From the NCBI GenBank assembly GCA_037043015.1, contig CM073322.1:23712364-23776363 (forward strand): a stretch of 64,000 bases of DNA. The letters are read 5' to 3'. The position numbers and the translations under genes were made by a program. The notes beneath the pieces are model-generated. The model was not told the origin of the DNA and searched no databases. It worked only from the letters and a program-made list of their open reading frames with translations. Shown here in pieces: positions 5,587-39,967 of this stretch. Position 1 is the stretch's first letter. The number at the start of each line of letters is the position of its first letter. The DNA comes from Bryum argenteum. Its lineage: Eukaryota; Streptophyta; Bryopsida; Bryales; Bryaceae.

Positions 5587-8500
5587 ATGGCTGAAGCTCT
5601 TATTCCAGGAGCTGGAGTTGGCTTGCTATTGAATGAGGTGCTATTGTTGGTAAAGAAAGTTCGAAGATGCCGTGAGAGTTTGAAGATATTGGCGATTACT
5701 TTGACCCAAATTCAATCTCAGGTGGAGAAGCTAAAGGGTTGTGGAAATGACAACTATCAAGCATGGCTAACACGCTTAGAAGTTCTCTTGAAAAAGGCAA
5801 AAAGTGTCATTGAGGATTATTGTGTTATGGAAGGTAAATGGTGGTGGAGTGTTGGATATACATATTTGAAAGAACCAGTTGTATCCTTGATGATCATGGA
5901 TCTTGATAACCAATTTCGGAGGGATATTGAATGTGTAAACATGGTAACTCTTGTCGTTCGAGCGTCACATGATTATCTCGAGACTTGCATGATTGGGAAG
6001 GGAGAAGCCAGTTTTGTGTTTTTGCCTCGCGGCCTTCCACCCAATATAGTGGAATTTGAAACGGATCCTTTTGGGGAACTCAAGACACTGATCATGGGTG
6101 AGAGGTATGGATCAAGTGACCATGTGATATTGGGGTGCAGAGGAGTTGGTGGAAGTGGCAAAACCTTGCTTGCAAAGATGTTGCTCAATGATGAGGATGT
6201 CAAAGCAAAGTTTGGAGAAGGTTCAATCTTGTGGATCACGGTTGGAAATGAAGCAAAGGTTTTTGATCTTTATGGAGTGATGGGGAAGTTTTTGAAGTTG
6301 AATGGTTACAAACGTGGAGACATTGAACAACAACGAGCTTATTTGATTGAAGCGTTTCGGGAGAAGAAGATTTTGTTGATTCTTGATGATATTTGGGAGG
6401 GAATTGAACAAGGTCATGAAATGATGCATTGGTTGGATGTAGTCAAAGGCAAAGGATCAATAACTTTGGTCACTACTCGATTTTATGGTGTCCTAACCAG
6501 AGCCAAAGCTAGCCGAATTGTTCATGTTTCATTATTGTCGGAGATTGAGAGTTGGAGGTTATTTTGTTACAATGCTTTTCCATCGGGTGAGGATCCAAGT
6601 GTTGAAGTTGAAACAATCGCCAAAAGTATTTGTAAGCAATGTAATGGATTGCCTTTGGCTTTGGTTGTGATGGGTGGTACAATGGAAGGCAAAAGAGAAC
6701 CATCACAATGGAGAGATGCTTTGAAAGCATTACAATATCCAAATGGGGCGTACAAATTGGTGAAAGAGAGGGTGTACTACCCACTGGAGTTGAGCTACAA
6801 CGAATTGGATGATGACTTAAAGAAGTGTTTTCTATATTTTGCAGCTTTTCCAGAAGATTATGAGATTCCGACAAGAATGCTATGTTCCATGTGGCATGTG
6901 GAAGAAATGTTTGAGAGTTACAAAGGAGAGAAGATTTATTGTGACGAAGGCCAAGGATTGATGAATTTGGTGAGCCTTGCAGACCGATCAATGATTAACC
7001 TTTCAAGAGATGGAGAATTTGCAAGCATACATGATGTATTACGAAATCTTGCACTGAGTGTAATACGTCAAGCAAAGTGGGATTGGGCTAGTGCATGCTA
7101 CTTTCAACCTGGAAGAGTTTTAGAAACACTTCCACAACCAAAGAGTAGGAATGTAACAAGAATTTCTTTGATGAGAAGTACAATTTATGATGACTTGGAG
7201 ACCTTGGCTTTATATGACCTTCAAGTCCTATTAGCATCTGGATTATGCAAAGAAGGCAATGAAGAGAAAAGTGCTCTTGAGCATTGTAGTACAATTTTTT
7301 TAAACAATACAAAGTTGTGCTATGTAGATTTCTCTGAAACATATCTAGAAAAACTTCCACAAGGCATTGAAAAGTTGAAGGTATTGAAATATCTGAATCT
7401 TTCAGGGTGTTCAATTTTGAAAGAACTTCCAGAGGGCATCAAGGAGTTGAAGGCTCTCACATCCTTAGATCTTTCAGAGTGTACATCTTTGAAGGAACTT
7501 CCAATTGGCATCAAAGAGTTGAAGGCTCTTACATCATTGAATCTTTTTGGGTGTTCATCATTAAAGGAGCTTCCAGAGGGCATTAAGGAGTTGAAGGCTC
7601 TTACATTCTTGGATCTTTCAAAGTGTACATCCTTGAAGAAACTTCCAGAGGGCATCATGGAGTTGAAGGCTCTCACATCCTTAGATCTTTCAGAGTGTAA
7701 ATCTTTGAAGGAACTTCCAATTGGCATCAAAGAGTTGAAGGCTCTTACATCATTGAATCTTTTTGGGTGTTCATCATTAAAGGAGCTTCCAGAGGGCATT
7801 AAGGAATTGAAGGCTCTTACATTGACTTGTGAACAATGCTCATCTTCAGACATGATGGAGTTGAAGGAAAGATCATCTAAATCGTTTGAATTGGAAGAAG
7901 AGGAGGCCCTTAGAATCTTTGAAATTGTAAGTATTTTGTTTTTGAATATTATGAAGGGCTTTAAGAGGCTTTGAGAGGTATTTTTAAGGTTGATATATCG
8001 TGATGTTTTGTGATATATGTAGGTACTAAGACTATGCAACATTTGATTATTTCCAAGTTCTTAATTATCTCAGTAATAATTAACAAACTCAAACTTGATA
8101 TTGGTATTGTGGAAGTAATCTCACATATTTTTGTACTCCTACTAATATTCAGGATGAACCCACGGACGTCGACCTACGTAGATTACATTGCGTTGGGACG
8201 CCAATGAATGGCAGCGAAATTCAGGAGTTAGAGACTCTTCCATTTGTGAATTCTTCAGATGAGATTCAGGATGAGCATGGCGGGCGCGACAAGCTGGAGG
8301 CCGAGATGATCAAAGTACAGGCCATTGACATGGACAACGCTGACATCCTCGTGGATTTGGAAAAATCGAGATTTGAGGAGATCATGGAGTGTTTTACCGC
8401 CTCTGTGCAAGGCGTTGAGATCCAAGTGGCCAAGTTTTTGCGAATGCATTTTGGCAACGACATTCAAGTGTTCAATCACATTCAAGTGTTAAATCACATT

Positions 8501-10300
8501 CAAGTGTTCAATCACATTCAAGTGTTCAGTCACATTCAAGTTTTCAATCGAGAGTGTGGCTTTCTCGTTTATACCCTTTCACGCACCATCCATGACCGAC
8601 TTCGGTACTACAACGACATGCTCCGCGATGTGCAAGAGTGGAACTCCCGTCGCGGCGTTGTGCAAGAGACGGGAGTCAACGACTGGTGCCGGATTTCCAT
8701 GAATGTGACGTTATGCATCGTTGCTCTCACTGAGCTAGAGCGCATGTTTCATGCGGTGGTGGACTTGCTCACCATATGTAGCGACGAGAACTGGTGGAAC
8801 ACAGCGTTGGAGCTTTCAAACGCGTTTCCGTCTTCCTCCATCCCGCGCTGGTCGCGCTTCTCGCTTGCCATTCGATCGTGCGAGTGGAGCATGGACATTG
8901 TTGACTTAGCGTTTCATGCTTTGCAACAGTCTCTTACCGGTGCATCCACATTGCCTGGCGCTGTTTTCAAGTGGTCAGATAAGCAATTAAGGATGGTGCT
9001 CCACATCCACGGCAAGCCATTGTATCACAACGAAGGCAAACGTTCACTACTCGACGTCACCAGGGAGCTGGAAGGCAAGGACATCATCTCTCTGATCGAT
9101 AAGTTGGAGGCGCTAGAGATAGTTGAAGAGAAGCCTCGGAAACGGTTATCTAACAATTACTTTAGCTGGAAACGGTTTGCAAACGCAGACGCCAATATAC
9201 TCCCCATCGCCAACATGCTCCCCATCGCCAATTTCTTGAGAAAGAAGTTACGTGGACCGATTCCAGAACCGAGCTCGTTACCAGACACATTTGAGTTGGA
9301 CCCTTCGACGTTGACCTTTAAAGGTTTCATCGGGAGCGGAGGTTTTGCAACCGTACGGAAGTCTGAGTGGCTGGGGCAAACAGTGGGTGTGAAGACAATC
9401 AATGAGGTGAACAGGAAACAAATCAAGGCAGAAGCGGCCATTTTAGCCTCAGTGCAGCATCCAAATGTAGTGCGAATGATCGGGTGGGCCTTCGAAGAGA
9501 ATGAAAAAGAAGCAGAAAGTGAAGATGAGGCAGAGAATGAAGATGATGCAGAGAATGAAGATGAAGCAGAGGATGAAGATATAGCAAAGACAGGCCACCT
9601 GGTGATGGAGCTCATGCAGGCTGACCTACGCAAGGTGATCGACAAGCGGTGTCGCAAACCAGCTCCAAAGAAAATCCCCTTCCCGCTCATTGTGGCCATC
9701 GACATCATGCTCCAAATCGGCGAAGGAATGCAGTATCTCCGAGAGCACAGGATCCTGCACCGCGATCTGAAGGCGAAGAACGTTCTCCTCAACGAATGTA
9801 GCACGAGTGAGTGCGGCGCGTTCAGGAAGTTTCCAAAGCTGGCATCTCTGTTTCCCACAAAAAAATACCGGAGGAACTGTTATTACATTGCGAAGCTGGC
9901 AGATTTCGGCACAGCCAAAGCTCGCCGCTATGAAACCAGTTTCAAGACCCCAAATTTGGGCACGGGATCATGGAGGGCCCCGGAGGTGTTGAACGTCTCT
10001 GCCGACAAGTACGAGTGGCCTGCTGATGTTTACAGCTTTGCCATGACTTGCTACGAGATCCTCACGGGGCGCGTTCCATTTGACAAAGTGCCACCCACGA
10101 AATTACACCAACACATCGTAGATGGTCACAGGCCTCCACTTGACGATGTGGAAATGCCTGCACTTTTGAGGGGCCTCGTGAAACGTTGCTGGGAAACGGA
10201 TCCTAACAAACGACCCAGCTTCGATGAGATCTGCAAGACTCTTTGGCAATGCAAGGTTGAAATCATCTTGCCTGGGTTTAGACTTCAGATTGATCCTTGA
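5587..10300 (+). CDS. NB-ARC-LRR immune receptor fused to a TKL-like protein kinase
   Basis: Model: exon 1 5587-7926, phase-0 intron 7927-8152 (GTAAGT...CAG), exon 2 8153-10300, 1495 residues. I chose the ATG at 5587 (MAEALIPG) over the in-frame ATG at 5509 because it resembles normal coiled-coil NLR starts. Visible in order: helical N-terminal domain (about 1-150, CC/RPW8-like), P-loop GVGGSGKT (186), kinase-2 LLILDDIW (about 263), RNBS-B LVTTR (about 293), GLPLAL (354), RNBS-D CFLYFAAFPED (414), IHD in place of MHD (481), and LRRs (590-748). Exon 2 adds an unrecognised alpha-helical region with a six-residue IQVFNH repeat. The kinase follows with a GSGGFATV loop, VK lysine, acidic Glu/Asp-Ala insert, HRDLKAKN, DFG and APE, so catalysis looks possible. 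NLRs sense pathogen effectors in the cytoplasm. If the intron is retained, a stop at 7972-7974 gives an 821-residue (from 5509) NLR without kinase. The alternative is two adjacent genes, with the kinase starting at 8204. Confidence 0.65.
7354..7829 (+). repeat. 72-bp tandem LRR-coding repeats
   Basis: Six full units and one partial unit of 24 residues with the pattern LPxGIxELKALTxLxLxxCxSLKE. A higher-order 216-bp (three-unit) duplication is evident: about 7465-7610 and 7681-7826 differ at only a few bases. This suggests recent unequal exchange within the sensor domain. Confidence 0.85.
8461..8550 (+). repeat. Five 18-bp in-frame repeats
   Basis: CATTCAAGTGTTCAATCA-like units start at 8461, 8479, 8497, 8515 and 8533, encoding five copies of HIQVFN-like hexapeptides in the linker of the kinase part. 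The length is a multiple of three, so copy changes keep the frame. Confidence 0.85.
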
Positions 10301-15947: not shown

Positions 15948-17921
15948 TACGAATCGATCTCCACAAGCAAGACTGGAATGGGTCCCTGCAAGAGATAGAA
16001 GCTTCAAAATCCCAGTGCGAAATGTGTGCCTGTACAGAAGTATGGAAGATTGAGTACGAGGTTCTGAGAGTGTACAAATCAGACTGGTGTATTCCCGATT
16101 GTGTTGGAGAAGATTTTATTTTCTCCCGAGAAATGATCGTTAATACCCGTCAGTACATGCGTCGTGTGCAGTTTCTTGTGGTGGGAGGCGCCAGAAGGCG
16201 GGCACAGAAGCGAAAGCAGGAAAATTCTACGGTAATTCGATCGGAATCGAAGTTGCATCGATCGAAGTTTTGGCGGCCTTCACTAATCTAGAATGCCACA
16301 TGGCATGCTTTCGACTTCAGTTTGCTCCTGTAACGTTCATGCTAAAGATTTGAACATACGCACGCTGGGTCAGTCTTGTCGTCACATGCCTCTTTCATTA
16401 CTAAATATTGTCATATCATGCCACGTATACATATTCCAGTCACGGTTTCCCAACGATGACTTGGAATTTTGAAGTATCTGTAGAATAATGTGCTTCGTAA
16501 GTTGGTTCTTACACTCCAATTTTTTTAAGGTTCATAGATTTTTTCGGGATATGCAACTCTTTGATGTAGAAATGCTATCAAACTTTCATGAACGAGAAGG
16601 ATGTGAGATGCTCACCATAGAACTTCGAGCACCGTCAGCCCGTTTAAGGGAATGTTGCTCGGGAGTTGAGTTTTCGTGACTGTGCACTTTCTGAGATTGT
16701 ACTTCCTGTAAATTTTCTAAGGCTGCACATGCCAATAATAAGCATAGATTCAATGTAAATAGCACGAAAATAACTAATGAAATGCACAGAGGAGACTTGT
16801 TTGCAAGCACGACGGGATAGCAAGAAAGAGCAAATTTTGATTAGGGCGCCGAGGGTGAACTATATACCAGGGCCCTGCGGTGGCTTTGCTTTCGAAGGCA
16901 ACACACGTAAAAACTTGCTTTGCGTCGGAGATTGAGTTAACTTGTGTAGGTGCATTTAACCACTAGAGTACTGTTTTATCCTTTTTATAATAAGATCCAC
17001 AGACCATTCTATCTGGGATGACAGCAACCATTACAATCAGGGTAACACTTGATGTGGGTCACCAAATTCTCCGATCAGGAGCAGTAACTTGGTCGGGAGA
17101 GATTGTAGTAGTGCAATGCGTAGTGCCGTGATGCCAGACATTGTAGTGCATGACCCCGCAACGAATTCGTCCGTGTAGTACAAATAAAAGCCGGATATTG
17201 AGAGTATCTACGTCGTATCAAGTAGTACTTCTTGCAGGAGTCTGATGCTAACCATAATAGAGTAAGACTGCATTTCGTTACTATGCTCATCTGTTACGTC
17301 AAAGGATTTAGAGTAATATTCTCCGCAATGCACAATTGCAAGCCCCTCGGGTAAGCAGTGCAGTCTCTCTCGAGCTTAAATAAATCAGGAGCAGCTCTGA
17401 ATTCTTCCGAATCTCCTGCCAGACTCTTCAGAGTAGATTCTGTATTCTCCAATCGCTACAGTGAAGTAAATGTTCAATAGCGTTGAGAAATAAACAGAAA
17501 TATAGGTTCTGTGTGGACGTAAACTTCACAACGGGGGTTGTAAGTAGCTCCTCTTCTGATACCAACACAATCCGGTTACGTAATTTTGCGAAACTCTCTG
17601 CTAAATGCAAGCGGACACAAAATGCAATACAAAACGCAACGAGCAGTGAAACGCACACCCTTCAAGTAACCATGGTAATATACATCGTAGAAACCATGGC
17701 TGGCGATGCGCAAGTCCAGCCATCATGAACCTCACAAACAGAAATAAGCGAGAAGCAGGACGAGAGGTTCACAGCGGAAGTAACCAAATGAAAGTTTTAT
17801 TCAGAATGATACAAGTATGTACATTTGTTCTCAACAAAGAAATAATTGCCCTCAGAAGGAGTACTCGAACAGAGCAAACAACCTTCACTGAGCTTGATCC
17901 GCATCAAAATCAGCAATCACT

Positions 17922-18143
17922 CTAGAAGGGGATGGCGCTGGCGACGCGAGGGTACACGACGCGGTTGGGGTGGTGAAGCAGCCTGCGCGCCTTCTGCCTC
18001 CGGAAACAGTAGAGCGCGGCGCCCAATGGCCACTCCACCACGGCGGTGATGACGAACGCCACTACGCCCAGCGTGGGACCGACGATCTTGCAGTGGCACG
18101 GGTTCTGCCTCGTATGGCACTGAATGCACAGCGGAATCGCCAT
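17922..18143 (-). CDS. Small Cys-rich single-helix protein, copy B
   Basis: 73 residues, identical in protein sequence to copies C, D and E as read here: four N-terminal cysteines (C6, C9, C16, C18), one hydrophobic helix and a basic patch followed by a VVYPRV tail. A longer in-frame start exists at 18203, but only the 73-residue form is shared by all copies. A TATAAAA-like sequence on the minus strand lies at about 18311-18317, roughly 170 bp upstream of the ATG. An AATAAA signal on the minus strand (17796-17801) lies about 120 bp past the stop. Probably a small membrane-anchored metal-binding or redox-sensitive protein, but this is speculation. Confidence 0.8.
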   Translation of the reverse strand: MAIPLCIQCHTRQNPCHCKIVGPTLGVVAFVITAVVEWPLGAALYCFRRQKARRLLHHPNRVVYPRVASAIPF

Positions 18144-19844
18144 CACGAATCGATCTCCACAAGCAAGACTGGAATGGGTCCTTGCAAGAGATAGATGCTT
18201 CAAAATCCCAGTGCGAGATGTGTGCCTGTACAGAAGTATGAAGGATTGAGTACGAGGTTCTGAAAGTGTGCAGATCAGACTGGTGGATTCCTGATGGTGT
18301 TGGAGATGGTTTTATATTCTCCCGAGAATTGATCAACTGGTAATACCCGCCAATACACGCGTCCTGTGAAGATTTTTATGGGTGGAGGCGCCAGATGGCG
18401 GGCAGAGAAGCGCAGGCTTGAATCATTCCATGGTTATTCGGATGGGATCGATGTTGCATCGATAGAAGTTATGGCGGGCTGCACGAGACTGCCACATGGC
18501 ATGCTTTCGACTGAAGTTTGCTCCTATCACGTTTATGCTAAAGATTTCGATATACGTAACGTTGGATCAGCGTTGTCGTCACATGCCTCTTTTATTATTA
18601 TTATTGTCATATCATACCACGTATACATTCTCCAGCCAAGGTTTCCCGATGATGACTTGGAATTTTGAAGTATCTGTAGAATAATGTGCTTCGGGAGTCG
18701 ATTCTTATACTCCAATTTTTTTAAGATACTTTGTTGTTTTTTTCAAGGTTATGCATCTCTATGATGTAGAAATTATGTCAAACTCATGAACGAGAAGGAT
18801 GTGTTAGAGCACCGTCACCCCGTTTAATGGAAATTTAGCTCGGGAGTTGAGTTATCCTGTGCACTTTCTGAAATTGCACTTCCTGTCAAATTTCTAGGGC
18901 TGCACATGCCCATAATAAGCATAGGTATAATGTAAATAGCACGAAAATAACAAATGAAGCAGAGAGGGCCGTACAGAGGAGACTTGTTTGCAAGCACGAC
19001 AGGATAGCAAGAAAGAGCAAACTTTGATTAGGGCGCCGAGGGAGCTTTGGTTTCGAAGGCAACACACACAAAAGTTGCTTTGCGTCAGCGATTGAGTTAA
19101 CTTGTATAGGTGCATTTAACCACTAGAATTATGTTTTATCCTCTTTACGATAAGAGCCATTGACCAATCTACTCTGGGATGACAGCATCCATTACAAACA
19201 GGGTAACACTTGATGTGGGTCTCCCAATTCTCCAATAGAGTAATACTCTCCGCAATGCACAATTTCAAGCCCCTCGGCGAAGCAGTGTAGGCTTCTTCAA
19301 GCTTATATAAATCAGCAGCTGCAGCTCTGAATGCTTCCAAATCTCTTACGGACTTTCAAAATAGATCCTGTATTCTTCAATCATTGCAATGAAGTAAAGT
19401 TTGAATAGCGTTGAGAAAATAACATAAATATAGATTCTGTATGGGCGTAAACTTCACAACGGAGGTTGTATGTTGCTCCTCTTCTGATATCAACACAATC
19501 CGGTTACGTGATTTCGCGAAACCCTCAACTAAATGCAAGCGGACACAAAGTGCAATGAAAACGTAACAATCGATGAAACGCACACCCTTCAAGTACTCGT
19601 GGTCAAAGATCTCAGAATCCATGGCTGGCGATGCGCAAGTACAGCCGTCACGAACCTCATAAACAGGAAGCAGGACGAAAATTTCACAGCGAAAGTAACC
19701 GAATGAAAAATTTATTCAAATTGATACAAGTATGTACATTTGTGCTTAACACAGGAAAATTGCACTCAGCAGGAGTACTCGAACAGAGCAATCAACCTCC
19801 ACTGAGCTCGATCCGCATCAAAAACTGGCAGTGCAGCGATCATC

Positions 19845-22340: not shown

Positions 22341-22932
22341 GAGCAACTTTTGATCAATGGAGGGTCCCCAGAATTACAGATCAGGGGCAGTAACTTGATC
22401 CGACGGAAGAGATTCCAACCTGAAGTTGTAGTACGTAATGCCGTGATGCCAGACATTCCAGTGCATCATGCTTCCTAAAGGAGTCTCATGCTAACAGAGA
22501 CAATGATAGATTGCTAGTTAGGTTGTTAGGAAGAGTTGTGAGTAGCACCTCTACCGTCAGCAAAATAATCCGGTCTCATAACTTGCGAAACCTTCACCTT
22601 GCATCTGTTACAAATGCAAGCAGACAAAAGAATGCAATACAAAACGCAACGAACAGTAAAACGCAGACCCTTAATTCAAGTGATCATGGTCACAGATCAT
22701 AGATGCCATGATGAGCGACCCAAAAGTGTAGCCATCAAGAACCTCGGGAACAGCAATAAGCGGGAAGCAAGAGGAGACGTTTACAGGGGAAGTTATTGAA
22801 TGAAACATTTATTTATATCGATACAAGTATGTACATGGGTGCTCATCAGAGGAAAATTGCACTCAGCAGGAGTACTCGAACAGAGTAAACAACCTCCACT
22901 GAGCTCGATCCGCATCAAAACCGGCCACCACT

Positions 22933-23154
22933 CTAGAAGGGGATGGCGCTGGCGACACGAGGATACACGACGCGGTTGGGGTGGTGGAGCAACCTGCGCG
23001 CCTTCTGCCTCCGGAAACAGTAGAGCGCGGCGCCCAATGGCCACTCCACCACGGCGGTGATGACGAACGCCACTACCCCCAATGTGGGACCGACGATCTT
23101 GCAGTGGCACGGGTTCTGGCGCGTATGGCACTGAATGCACAATGGAATCGCCAT
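22933..23154 (-). CDS. Small Cys-rich single-helix protein, copy D
   Basis: 73 residues, same protein as copy B. It carries several silent differences (for example around 22960 and 23080), consistent with selection on the protein. The open frame extends far upstream of the ATG (to 23400), but that part is leader sequence shared with C and E, where it is interrupted, so I keep the 73-residue start. The C/D/E-type leader lies at 23155-23500. This unit keeps the empty insertion sites used by MITEs in neighbouring units. Confidence 0.8.
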   Translation of the reverse strand: MAIPLCIQCHTRQNPCHCKIVGPTLGVVAFVITAVVEWPLGAALYCFRRQKARRLLHHPNRVVYPRVASAIPF

Positions 23155-23499
23155 CTCTGATCGATCTCCCAACGAGCAATGGCAAGAATGATAGATCTGG
23201 AAGAAGTGTGCAACTGTGATCGCTTGATAAGCTTCGAAAAGTGCTCCAACAGGATTGACTATCAAGTTCTGTGAAGAGTGTCGGGACTGATTGAGAGGAG
23301 AATGTCCGCACTGTGCTTTATGTCGTCGCAAGATGGAGGATGTTGGTAACAGCTGTCGAGGACGCGTGTCGAGGTGGGTGCTTCTGAAGCCATTTGCCAC
23401 ATGTCAAGTGGGAGGACTTTACGGGCAGGCGAGTTGAATGTTTCAGAATCCTTGTTCATCTGCCCTCGGAATCCTTCTGACCTTCTGAAGGACCACTTT

Positions 23500-37835: not shown

Positions 37836-39967
37836 ATGAGTAACATGAAGCACGCGCGCTTGCTTTTGAAAGCGTTTCAGAAAGCGCCGCAGATACGCAG
37901 TTTTCGTGCGCCACCTTCGTCAGTCCCGAGTAATGGAAAAACTGTACTTCTCAGGAGATTGAACGACACCGAATCCTTTTCTCCTTTCTCCAAGGTTCGC
38001 CTTCCATTTACTGGTGCATCTTTTTTTTAGTCGTAAATTTTCCTTAAACCCTAAACCTTGGTGCAAGTCATTATCATCCTTGATGGCCTCTCACGAGAAT
38101 AGGGAACGCTGAAGTTATTTGGTAGTAATTCGTCTTCGTGGTGCATTGGACTCTTCGATTTGAACCTTAAAATTTGATCATGAACCCTAAAATGGTTTTA
38201 GAATTATGAGAATGGAGCATTGACTCCGGGATTCTTCCTTCTACCACATAGATTTGAGAGAATGGTGTAGTTTTTACATGGCCTACATTTGGTTATGGTT
38301 ACCAAGTGTTCAAGGCGTATAATTTTGGTGTGATATTCACGCAGAGGTGGACAGCCGCTACGCTTCATCATGGAGTGCCTCAAGTATCGTCTGCCTCGCA
38401 CTTCCATACTTCTTCCATTTTGTCTTCCGCCGTCTCATCCGACATTCCAGATGTTTCAGGTAAACTAGGTTACATCTTTGTATGCTCACTGGTTGTTCTG
38501 TTGTTTTGATGCCACAGACGCTTCCAACTGCGATTTCAATATAGGATACCGTGGTTATAATTGAACAGCTTGTGTTTTCCCCATGAAGCCTCTGAATTAT
38601 ATCATGTCCTTCCACTGTATATCATTTTCTAGGAATTCACATAGGGTATAGAGTGCTTATGAAATTATTTGGTGCTTTAGGTAAGAGGGACACTTCAGAG
38701 ACCTCTGCAACAGAAAGCAGCGCAACAGCAGCATCTGAGGATACCGCTGAACCTGTCCATCGTGTGGACACTCCCTCCGACGAGAAGGGCGGTGATTTAG
38801 CAGAGCTGCTAGCGGAAAGAGACGCTCAGTTGGAAGAGAGAGACAAAGTCATAAAGGAATTGCAGGAAAAGGTGCTTAGAAGTTACGCTGAAGTTGAAAA
38901 TATCTTAGCGAGGTCTCAGCGGGAAGCAGAGTCTACTCGCAAATTTGCCTTGCAGGTATGTGAAGTGCCTCTGTCGATGTCGATTTGTTTCTTTTTGTCA
39001 TATTGGATCTTTTCTTACTGGGAGCATTTCAGTTTGCAATACACTCCATCTCGCTTTTTAGCAGATGAACATACACTCTCTATTCGGGACGGTGACTCAT
39101 GTGGTCAATATACATGTATTACTGCTGCTTGAGTTATTAATTATCAATCGTTCGGATGCAGGGTTTCGCTAAGAGTTTACTAGACGTTGCTGATAACCTT
39201 GGGCGAGCCACTGGGGCGGTTCCTCAAAGTTTCCGCCAATCAGATGCGGCTTCGGAAGGTTCGAGCGAGGCAGCCAAGCATTTGAGATCATTATTGCAGG
39301 GTGTAGAGATGACGGAGAAGCAGCTTCAGCAGGTCTGTTGAAGCTGATGCTTTCGCTCGTGACTCTGCTATTATTTCTTGCATTGTCTTGAATTTGAGCG
39401 GTGTAATTCATTCTTCGTGAGGTTCCGTTGTCAAATACTTGCGCCTTTCTATCAAGTACCCATAGAATCGTGAAAGACACTGATGTGTGTAGGTCGAAAT
39501 AGTATCTTTGTTGATGAGTATGTTAACGCAGGGCCTGACTTTCTAGTTGTGTGATGTAACCAGGTGTTTAGAAGGAATGGCTTAGAGAAGTTCGAATCCG
39601 AAGGAGAAGAGTTTGACCCCAACTTCCATTCTGCAATGTTTGAAATGGAAGATGAAAGCAAAACTCCCGGCACAGTAGCTGTTGTCACGAAGGTACTTAG
39701 AGGCTATGAGCATGGTCTCATGAGAGTATTTTCTTGATGAATGAAATGGAGAGAGTACCGTAGTCATGGTCTTGAAGTCCTCATGTTTGTGTACATACTG
39801 CATCTTCGGCATTGAGGTCTTTTAGTCTTAATTGTTCATATGCTGAATATTAAGTTTGCTTGTTGTTTGATAACGAGTTTTATTGTGAATGATGGCAGGT
39901 GGGTTACAAGCTTCATGATCGCGTGATTCGGCCTGCTGAAGTGGGCGTTGTCAAAGCCAAGGAGTGA
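37836..39967 (+). CDS. Mge1: Mitochondrial GrpE (Hsp70 nucleotide exchange factor)
   Basis: Six exons, 305 residues: 37836-37994, 38345-38459, 38681-38955, 39162-39332, 39564-39692, 39899-39967. GrpE releases ADP from organelle Hsp70 and so drives protein import and folding. Visible in order: an Arg/Ser-rich, acid-poor leader (about 1-60, mitochondrial presequence type), an acidic linker, a long heptad coiled coil (LAELLAERDAQLEERDKVI, about 109-150), the NILARSQRE dimer region, FAKSLLDVADNLGRA, and the C-terminal head with GYKLHDRVIRPAEVGVVK. All splice phases agree. Plastid GrpE is the alternative, but the leader fits mitochondria better. It lies on the opposite strand to its tRNA ligase and LACS neighbours. 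Confidence 0.9.

Follow-up and report, generated by a model that had tools for sequence, protein, structure and literature searches.

We analysed a 64,000-nucleotide stretch of the genome of the moss Bryum argenteum (GenBank assembly GCA_037043015.1, contig CM073322.1, positions 23,712,364 to 23,776,363 of the forward strand; hereafter the window) that carries, at positions 5587-10300, a nucleotide-binding (NB) leucine-rich repeat (LRR) receptor (NLR) sequence followed by a protein kinase. Receptor and kinase very probably form a single spliced gene, with splicing predicted from the genomic sequence, and the kinase part appears to derive from a family of helical-kinase genes present in the same genome. 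The landmarks were read directly: the ATG at 5587-5589, the GTAAGT donor at 7927-7932, the AG acceptor at 8151-8152 and the stop codon at 10298-10300. Because exon 1 comprises 2340 nt, or 780 codons, the donor lies in phase 0. Downstream, an open frame spans 8099 to 10300; exon 2 contains 715 codons without a stop or frameshift, and 698 codons are counted from ATG 8204, the first in-frame ATG 3' of the acceptor. Without splicing, the receptor frame meets a stop at 7972-7974, 16 codons into the intron. A sequence-only reading had described an exon 1 ending at a phase-0 GTAAGT and an acceptor at 8151-8152 opening a frame into a 698-codon kinase, and the sequence confirms this. Its wider claim of an NLR followed by a kinase in one gene is the best reading of the frames, domains and genome comparison, with the splice itself standing as a prediction. 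It also suggested that intron retention might let one locus produce a kinase-less form as well; such a form would end at the stop at 7972-7974.

In a comparison with Pfam, NB-ARC (123.2 bits) and several LRR models exceeded their cut-offs in exon 1, and PK_Tyr_Ser-Thr (E 1.6e-40) and Pkinase (E 5.3e-40) matched in exon 2. The N-terminus of exon 1 resembled RPW8 (E 9e-5, 22.6 bits, below the cut-off of 30.4), and a winged-helix match (5.1e-5) was likewise below its cut-off; the receptor is probably of the coiled-coil (CC) type. In the stretch of exon 2 before the kinase, no Pfam family exceeded its cut-off. The nearest relatives of the receptor lie on contig C3 with 76% protein identity, and their main matches extend no further than residue 745 of 780, with one LRR piece reaching 753. 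Between the window receptor and one C3 relative, 499 codons gave a ratio of nonsynonymous to synonymous substitution (dN/dS) of 0.30, which suggests that the receptor half is maintained. The window contains one NB-ARC match, and the next ones among the matches listed for C2 lie at 21.28 and 26.41 Mb; no adjacent partner NLR was seen among the 123 of 232 candidates that were scored, a sample from which a weak neighbour could escape.

The whole genome (258.8 Mb, 25 contigs) was then searched with the helical region alone, which gave 13 matches at 10 places, the window included (the K loci are listed in the table below). If the count starts at the first in-frame ATG, the open frames of K1, K4 and K5 have 171, 175 and 115 extra N-terminal residues, respectively. 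These additional residues are common to K1, K4, K5, the second K5 copy and K6; a search for them in the window and in the surroundings of K2, K3 and K7 gave nothing at E up to 1. With the window receptor and the K3 TIR and NB pieces as queries, the roughly 10 kb upstream of K1, K2, K4 and K5 yielded no receptor. The shortened forms (window, K2, K3 and K7) group together (98/98); within them the window pairs with K7 (100/100) and K2 with K3 (100/98), and K1 comes next (91/93). Judged by these comparisons, exon 2 is related to stand-alone helical-kinase genes but truncated at its 5' end, and the promoter and start codon of those relatives would have been lost together with the N-terminal part. 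By the same comparisons, the helical region belongs to the kinase family. It had earlier been described as an unknown helical domain between receptor and kinase, and this description has to be revised: the region appears native to the kinase family, stand-alone members included, and not inserted between the two parts.

K7 is a decayed sister copy of the locus. Exon-1 tail, intron and exon 2 recur there as a single block, which matches window positions 7832-8495 at 82% and continues in further pieces. An alignment of 7820-8520 gave identities of 79% for the tail, 84% for the intron and 81% for the portion of exon 2 that it covered. The GTAAGT is kept in K7 and the CAG acceptor is lost; in exon 2, 8 of the 12 listed indels relative to the window shift the frame, one of the 12 lying at the alignment end. 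When the genome was searched with 7820-8270, no third copy turned up besides the window and K7. The receptor upstream of K7 is a different one, 41% identical, and lies outside the shared block. K7 itself is at C3:26526001-26536000 (L043, minus strand), near a cluster of NB-ARC matches at 26.49-26.56 Mb on C3.

Several tests bear on whether the locus is one gene or two. A GTAAGT donor with a phase-compatible open acceptor arose in 2 of 2000 dinucleotide shuffles of 7821-8203, and in 43 of 2000 a phase-compatible pair arose when eight donor types were allowed; the shuffle test was devised after the splice site had been seen. The coding score was positive in the exon-1 tail and past the acceptor and strongly negative in all three intron frames. 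The 51 bases before ATG 8204 scored 4.0 bits, a value matched by 2 of 180 noncoding windows. Alternatively, the receptor could be a gene of its own that stops at 7974, next to an independent kinase gene whose start is ATG 8204 or lies further on. Such an arrangement would agree with the stand-alone state of K1, K4 and K5, and either frame is able to end or begin independently. However, it would squeeze the end of one gene and the promoter and leader of the other into about 230 bases; ATG 8204 lacks a purine at -3, and its K7 equivalent is not ATG. Coding signal also lies upstream of this ATG, the 5' part of the kinase relatives is missing from the window kinase, and phase-matched donor and acceptor pairs are seldom seen in shuffles. 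We consider two genes unlikely. A single gene is favoured by the rare splice-site fit, the coding-score pattern and the score before the ATG, by a kinase without its native 5' part and only about 230 bases from the unspliced stop to ATG 8204, and by the recurrence of exon-1 tail, intron and exon 2 together in K7 and the end of the NLR relatives' match at residue 745.

A number of observations weigh against a single, maintained gene. The stretch before ATG 8204 scores higher in another frame (6.2 versus 4.0 bits), and 5 of 180 noncoding windows match its score when each is credited with its best frame. The receptor part and the CAG acceptor are absent from K7, which is decayed, so it gives no proof that the block was ever spliced to an NLR. 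Changes in exon 2 were assigned to branches over 1070 sites with K1, K2 and K3 as outgroups: the shared stem received 50 (19/10/21 by codon position), the K7 branch 64 (27/21/16) and the window branch 15 (5/8/2), the last without a third-position excess. Window-unique changes relative to K1-K3 are near-even over 586 codons (53/35/41), and the same count, made without K7, gave 32/27/99 for K1-unique changes. Because codon positions are nearly even in both window counts, purifying selection on the exon 2 protein would be weak or mixed with diversifying change. Pairwise dN/dS for exon 2 was 0.48 for the window against K3, 0.50 against K2 and 0.29 against K1, and 0.18 for K1 against K4. The kinase glycine loop, with A for its third G, is a further point of this kind.

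These data could also describe a decaying fusion: the kinase exon would be carried along while it turns into a pseudogene, a state that K7 has already reached. The even codon-position pattern, the repeat expansions and the altered glycine loop fit such decay; 715 codons free of stop and frameshift and 15 changes against 64 in K7 do not, and we regard it as quite unlikely. In a neutral simulation (5000 histories, 188 changes), the mean was 6.3 stops and none appeared in 0.2% of histories. That the window exon 2 has changed far less than the decayed K7 argues for constraint, and we read exon 2 as a frame kept during fast sequence change.

The best explanation of the locus would be one gene, an NB-LRR receptor in which the original 3' end gave way to a short tail, a phase-0 intron and a last exon that came from the helical-kinase family of the same genome. 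The kinase part, without the N-terminal 115-175 residues of its stand-alone relatives, would be read only as the receptor's last exon. There it may serve as an integrated domain: a pathogen protein that targets the stand-alone helical kinases would also act on the fused copy, the change would be relayed to the NB-ARC switch, and the response would come from the receptor's own N-terminus. This proposal draws on the finding that kinases are the commonest integrated domain, N- or C-terminal, in the available text of PMC4759884. Given a single spliced gene, we put the bait role at about even chances. The explanation as a whole, in which the fused gene weighs most and splicing, expression and the bait role are predicted, seems reasonably probable; it starts from the frames, domains, truncation, shared decayed copy and a TIR-NB in frame with the same kinase clade, as observed in the genome.

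That TIR-NB is at K3, where a TIR exon (Pfam 3.6e-13) and a P-loop exon are followed by an 829-residue frame containing the remainder of the NB, the helical region and the kinase. When the K3 TIR-NB was joined at phase-0 splice sites, Pfam NB-ARC reached 26.1 bits against a cut-off of 23.5; the third-exon part alone matched no Pfam family. No LRR was seen at K3, and its TIR frame has no ATG before the domain. By sequence comparison, K3 is a second receptor-kinase fusion, and it shares the truncated kinase clade with the window. The shortened forms make up a single branch, so the module may have been truncated one time, and the receptor partner would have changed later if events ran in this presumed order. 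The more distant K10, K11 and K14 are single frames with a TIR over the Pfam cut-off followed by helices and a kinase whose lysine is replaced. Because the kinase lysine is replaced, the TIR-helices-kinase frames in L046, L047 and L050 look like pseudokinases. The L047 frame (1046 residues) contains a TIR and two kinase stretches by Pfam.

Within a fused gene, the kinase exon could alternatively act as an MLKL-like output, an executor rather than a bait. In a profile search of the PDB, the top entries were 6lba (216 bits) and 6ka4 (208 bits), the latter of which we take to be an MLKL, ahead of EGFR (186) and TAK1 (166), and the match started about 40 positions ahead of the kinase. The entry 6lba is named an MLKL protein in PMC10881975, and Arabidopsis MLKLs are reported in PMC9950082 to function in TIR-NB-LRR (TNL) immunity. 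The module also lies 3' of a TIR-NB region, related modules lie 3' of TIR, and the window copy retains its lysine, HRD, DFG and APE. With the window module as a single sequence, 9p9u (EGFR) ranked above 6lba; no Pfam match to HeLo/DUF1221 was found at E up to 10 in four helical regions, and structural matches were not above the level common for bundles. An executor role appears rather unlikely, as does its presumed mechanism, in which receptor activation would gather helical-kinase modules and lead to cell death or phosphorylation. A tentative and broader possibility, still doubtful, is that in this lineage an MLKL-like module was excised a single time from its own gene and afterwards attached to an NB-LRR and a TIR-NB, with distant relatives joined directly to TIR, so that sensing and an MLKL-type output or bait would be combined in one protein.

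Table 1 Features of the receptor-kinase locus and related loci
Feature	Position	Strand	Remarks
Exon 1	5587..7926	+	780 codons, 2340 nt; CC/RPW8-like N-terminus (weak), NB-ARC, winged helix (weak), LRRs; Pfam
NB-ARC domain	6118..6744	+	Pfam NB-ARC, residues 178-386, E 1.4e-35
Leucine-rich repeats, 72-base tandem array	7397..7822	+	Tandem Repeats Finder and Pfam LRR models
Exon-1 tail 3' of the LRRs, common to decayed copy K7 on C3	7832..7926	+	
Predicted phase-0 intron	7927..8152	+	GTAAGT...TTCAG, 72% A+T
Exon 2 including stop codon	8153..10300	+	Open frame
Exon 2 start (linker)	8153..8266	+	51 bases precede first in-frame ATG 8204
Helical region of kinase module	8267..9304	+	Whole-genome search; predicted helices
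Protein kinase domain	9320..10246	+	Lysine, HRD, DFG, APE present; third glycine of glycine loop is A
In-frame 18-base tandem repeat within helical region	8460..8549	+	
In-frame 18-base tandem repeat, acidic insert in kinase domain	9496..9580	+	
Helical-region match, window	8267..9304	+	
Helical-region match, K1	C3 25.70 Mb		
Helical-region match, K2	C4 23.31 Mb		
Helical-region match, K3	C4 14.56 Mb		
Helical-region match, K4	C2 23.03 Mb		
Helical-region match, K5	C6 16.07 Mb		Plus partial second copy
Helical-region match, K6	C2 6.70 Mb		
Helical-region match, K7	C3 26.53 Mb		
Helical-region match, K8			Distant
K3 829-residue frame	L035:3797-6283	-	L035 = C4:14560001-14570000, minus
TIR-helices-kinase single open frame	L046:2528-5092	-	
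TIR-helices-kinase single open frame	L047:1158-4295	-	
TIR-helices-kinase single open frame	L050:2128-4287	-	

Exon 2 has three period-18 tandem arrays, all frame-keeping: the two in the table and one at 9190-9232. Elsewhere in the window, a 178-residue frame at 38596-39129 matched GrpE (4.3e-6, 26.9 bits versus a cut-off of 25.8). Two minus-strand frames, at 17917-18375 and 22793-23317, have closely similar C-terminal parts and may be a duplicated exon or pseudogene; neither the 17917-18375 frame nor another frame overlapping 22793-23317 had a Pfam match at 0.01.

NLR-kinase fusions, C-terminal ones included, are already known. In the survey of Sarris et al., no domain was fused to NLRs more often than the kinase, at either the N- or the C-terminus and from mosses onward, with 161 such proteins in 19 species (available text of PMC4759884). 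The predicted window gene would resemble these as a receptor with an added kinase, and differs in its larger helical-kinase module and in the occurrence of the same clade 3' of a TIR-NB in this genome. Kinase-first moss genes and the order of barley Rpg5 had been named as comparisons at the outset, rightly according to the accessible parts of PMC3352924 and PMC4246468. Rpg5 is an NBS-LRR-kinase protein paired with RGA1 (PMC4246468, in part) and, likened by domain order and given splicing here, shares a receptor followed by a C-terminal kinase past the LRRs; in contrast to Rpg5, the window gene has no adjacent partner among the scored NB-ARC candidates, and a helical region accompanies its kinase. 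The moss PNL genes also bring kinase, NBS and LRR together, again likened by domain order, but their kinase is N-terminal (PMC3352924; PMC3991678, as available), whereas that of the window gene is downstream of the receptor. Plant MLKL and wheat Pm13 likewise have a helical region followed by a kinase, 6lba being the closest solved structure by profile, and Pm13 also retains catalytic residues (PMC10951266, in the part available). They differ in that the window module has no detected HeLo/DUF1221 match, and in that the available parts of PMC10881975, PMC9950082 and PMC10951266 do not describe them as joined to an NLR. Chia et al. reported an expansion of NLRs with integrated domains in two mosses and detected no such domains in CC-MAEPL NLRs (PMC11218826, accessible text). 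The window protein starts with MAEALIPGAG, which resembles that motif by name only, and, unlike those NLRs, it would have a kinase. Among the papers listed in searches of an open library, none was seen to report a moss NLR or TIR fused to an MLKL-like module, a weak negative as most subscription papers lie outside that library. Reuse of one kinase module in different receptors is unusual.

If the locus yields one transcript, it would be an NLR-kinase in Rpg5 order in a moss, with unfused relatives and a decayed sister in the same genome, through which the donor family and the steps of capture would be traceable. If the motif holds, a receptor that starts with MAE and has an integrated domain would depart from the survey of Chia et al. 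Were the MLKL-like module indeed shared in this way, receptors in this moss would physically incorporate the MLKL branch that in Arabidopsis operates downstream of TIR receptors. With a TIR-NB attached to the same clade, this kinase family looks like a recurrent target or partner of immune receptors; two receptor classes would then be expected to rely on a shared bait or a shared output, which is directly testable.
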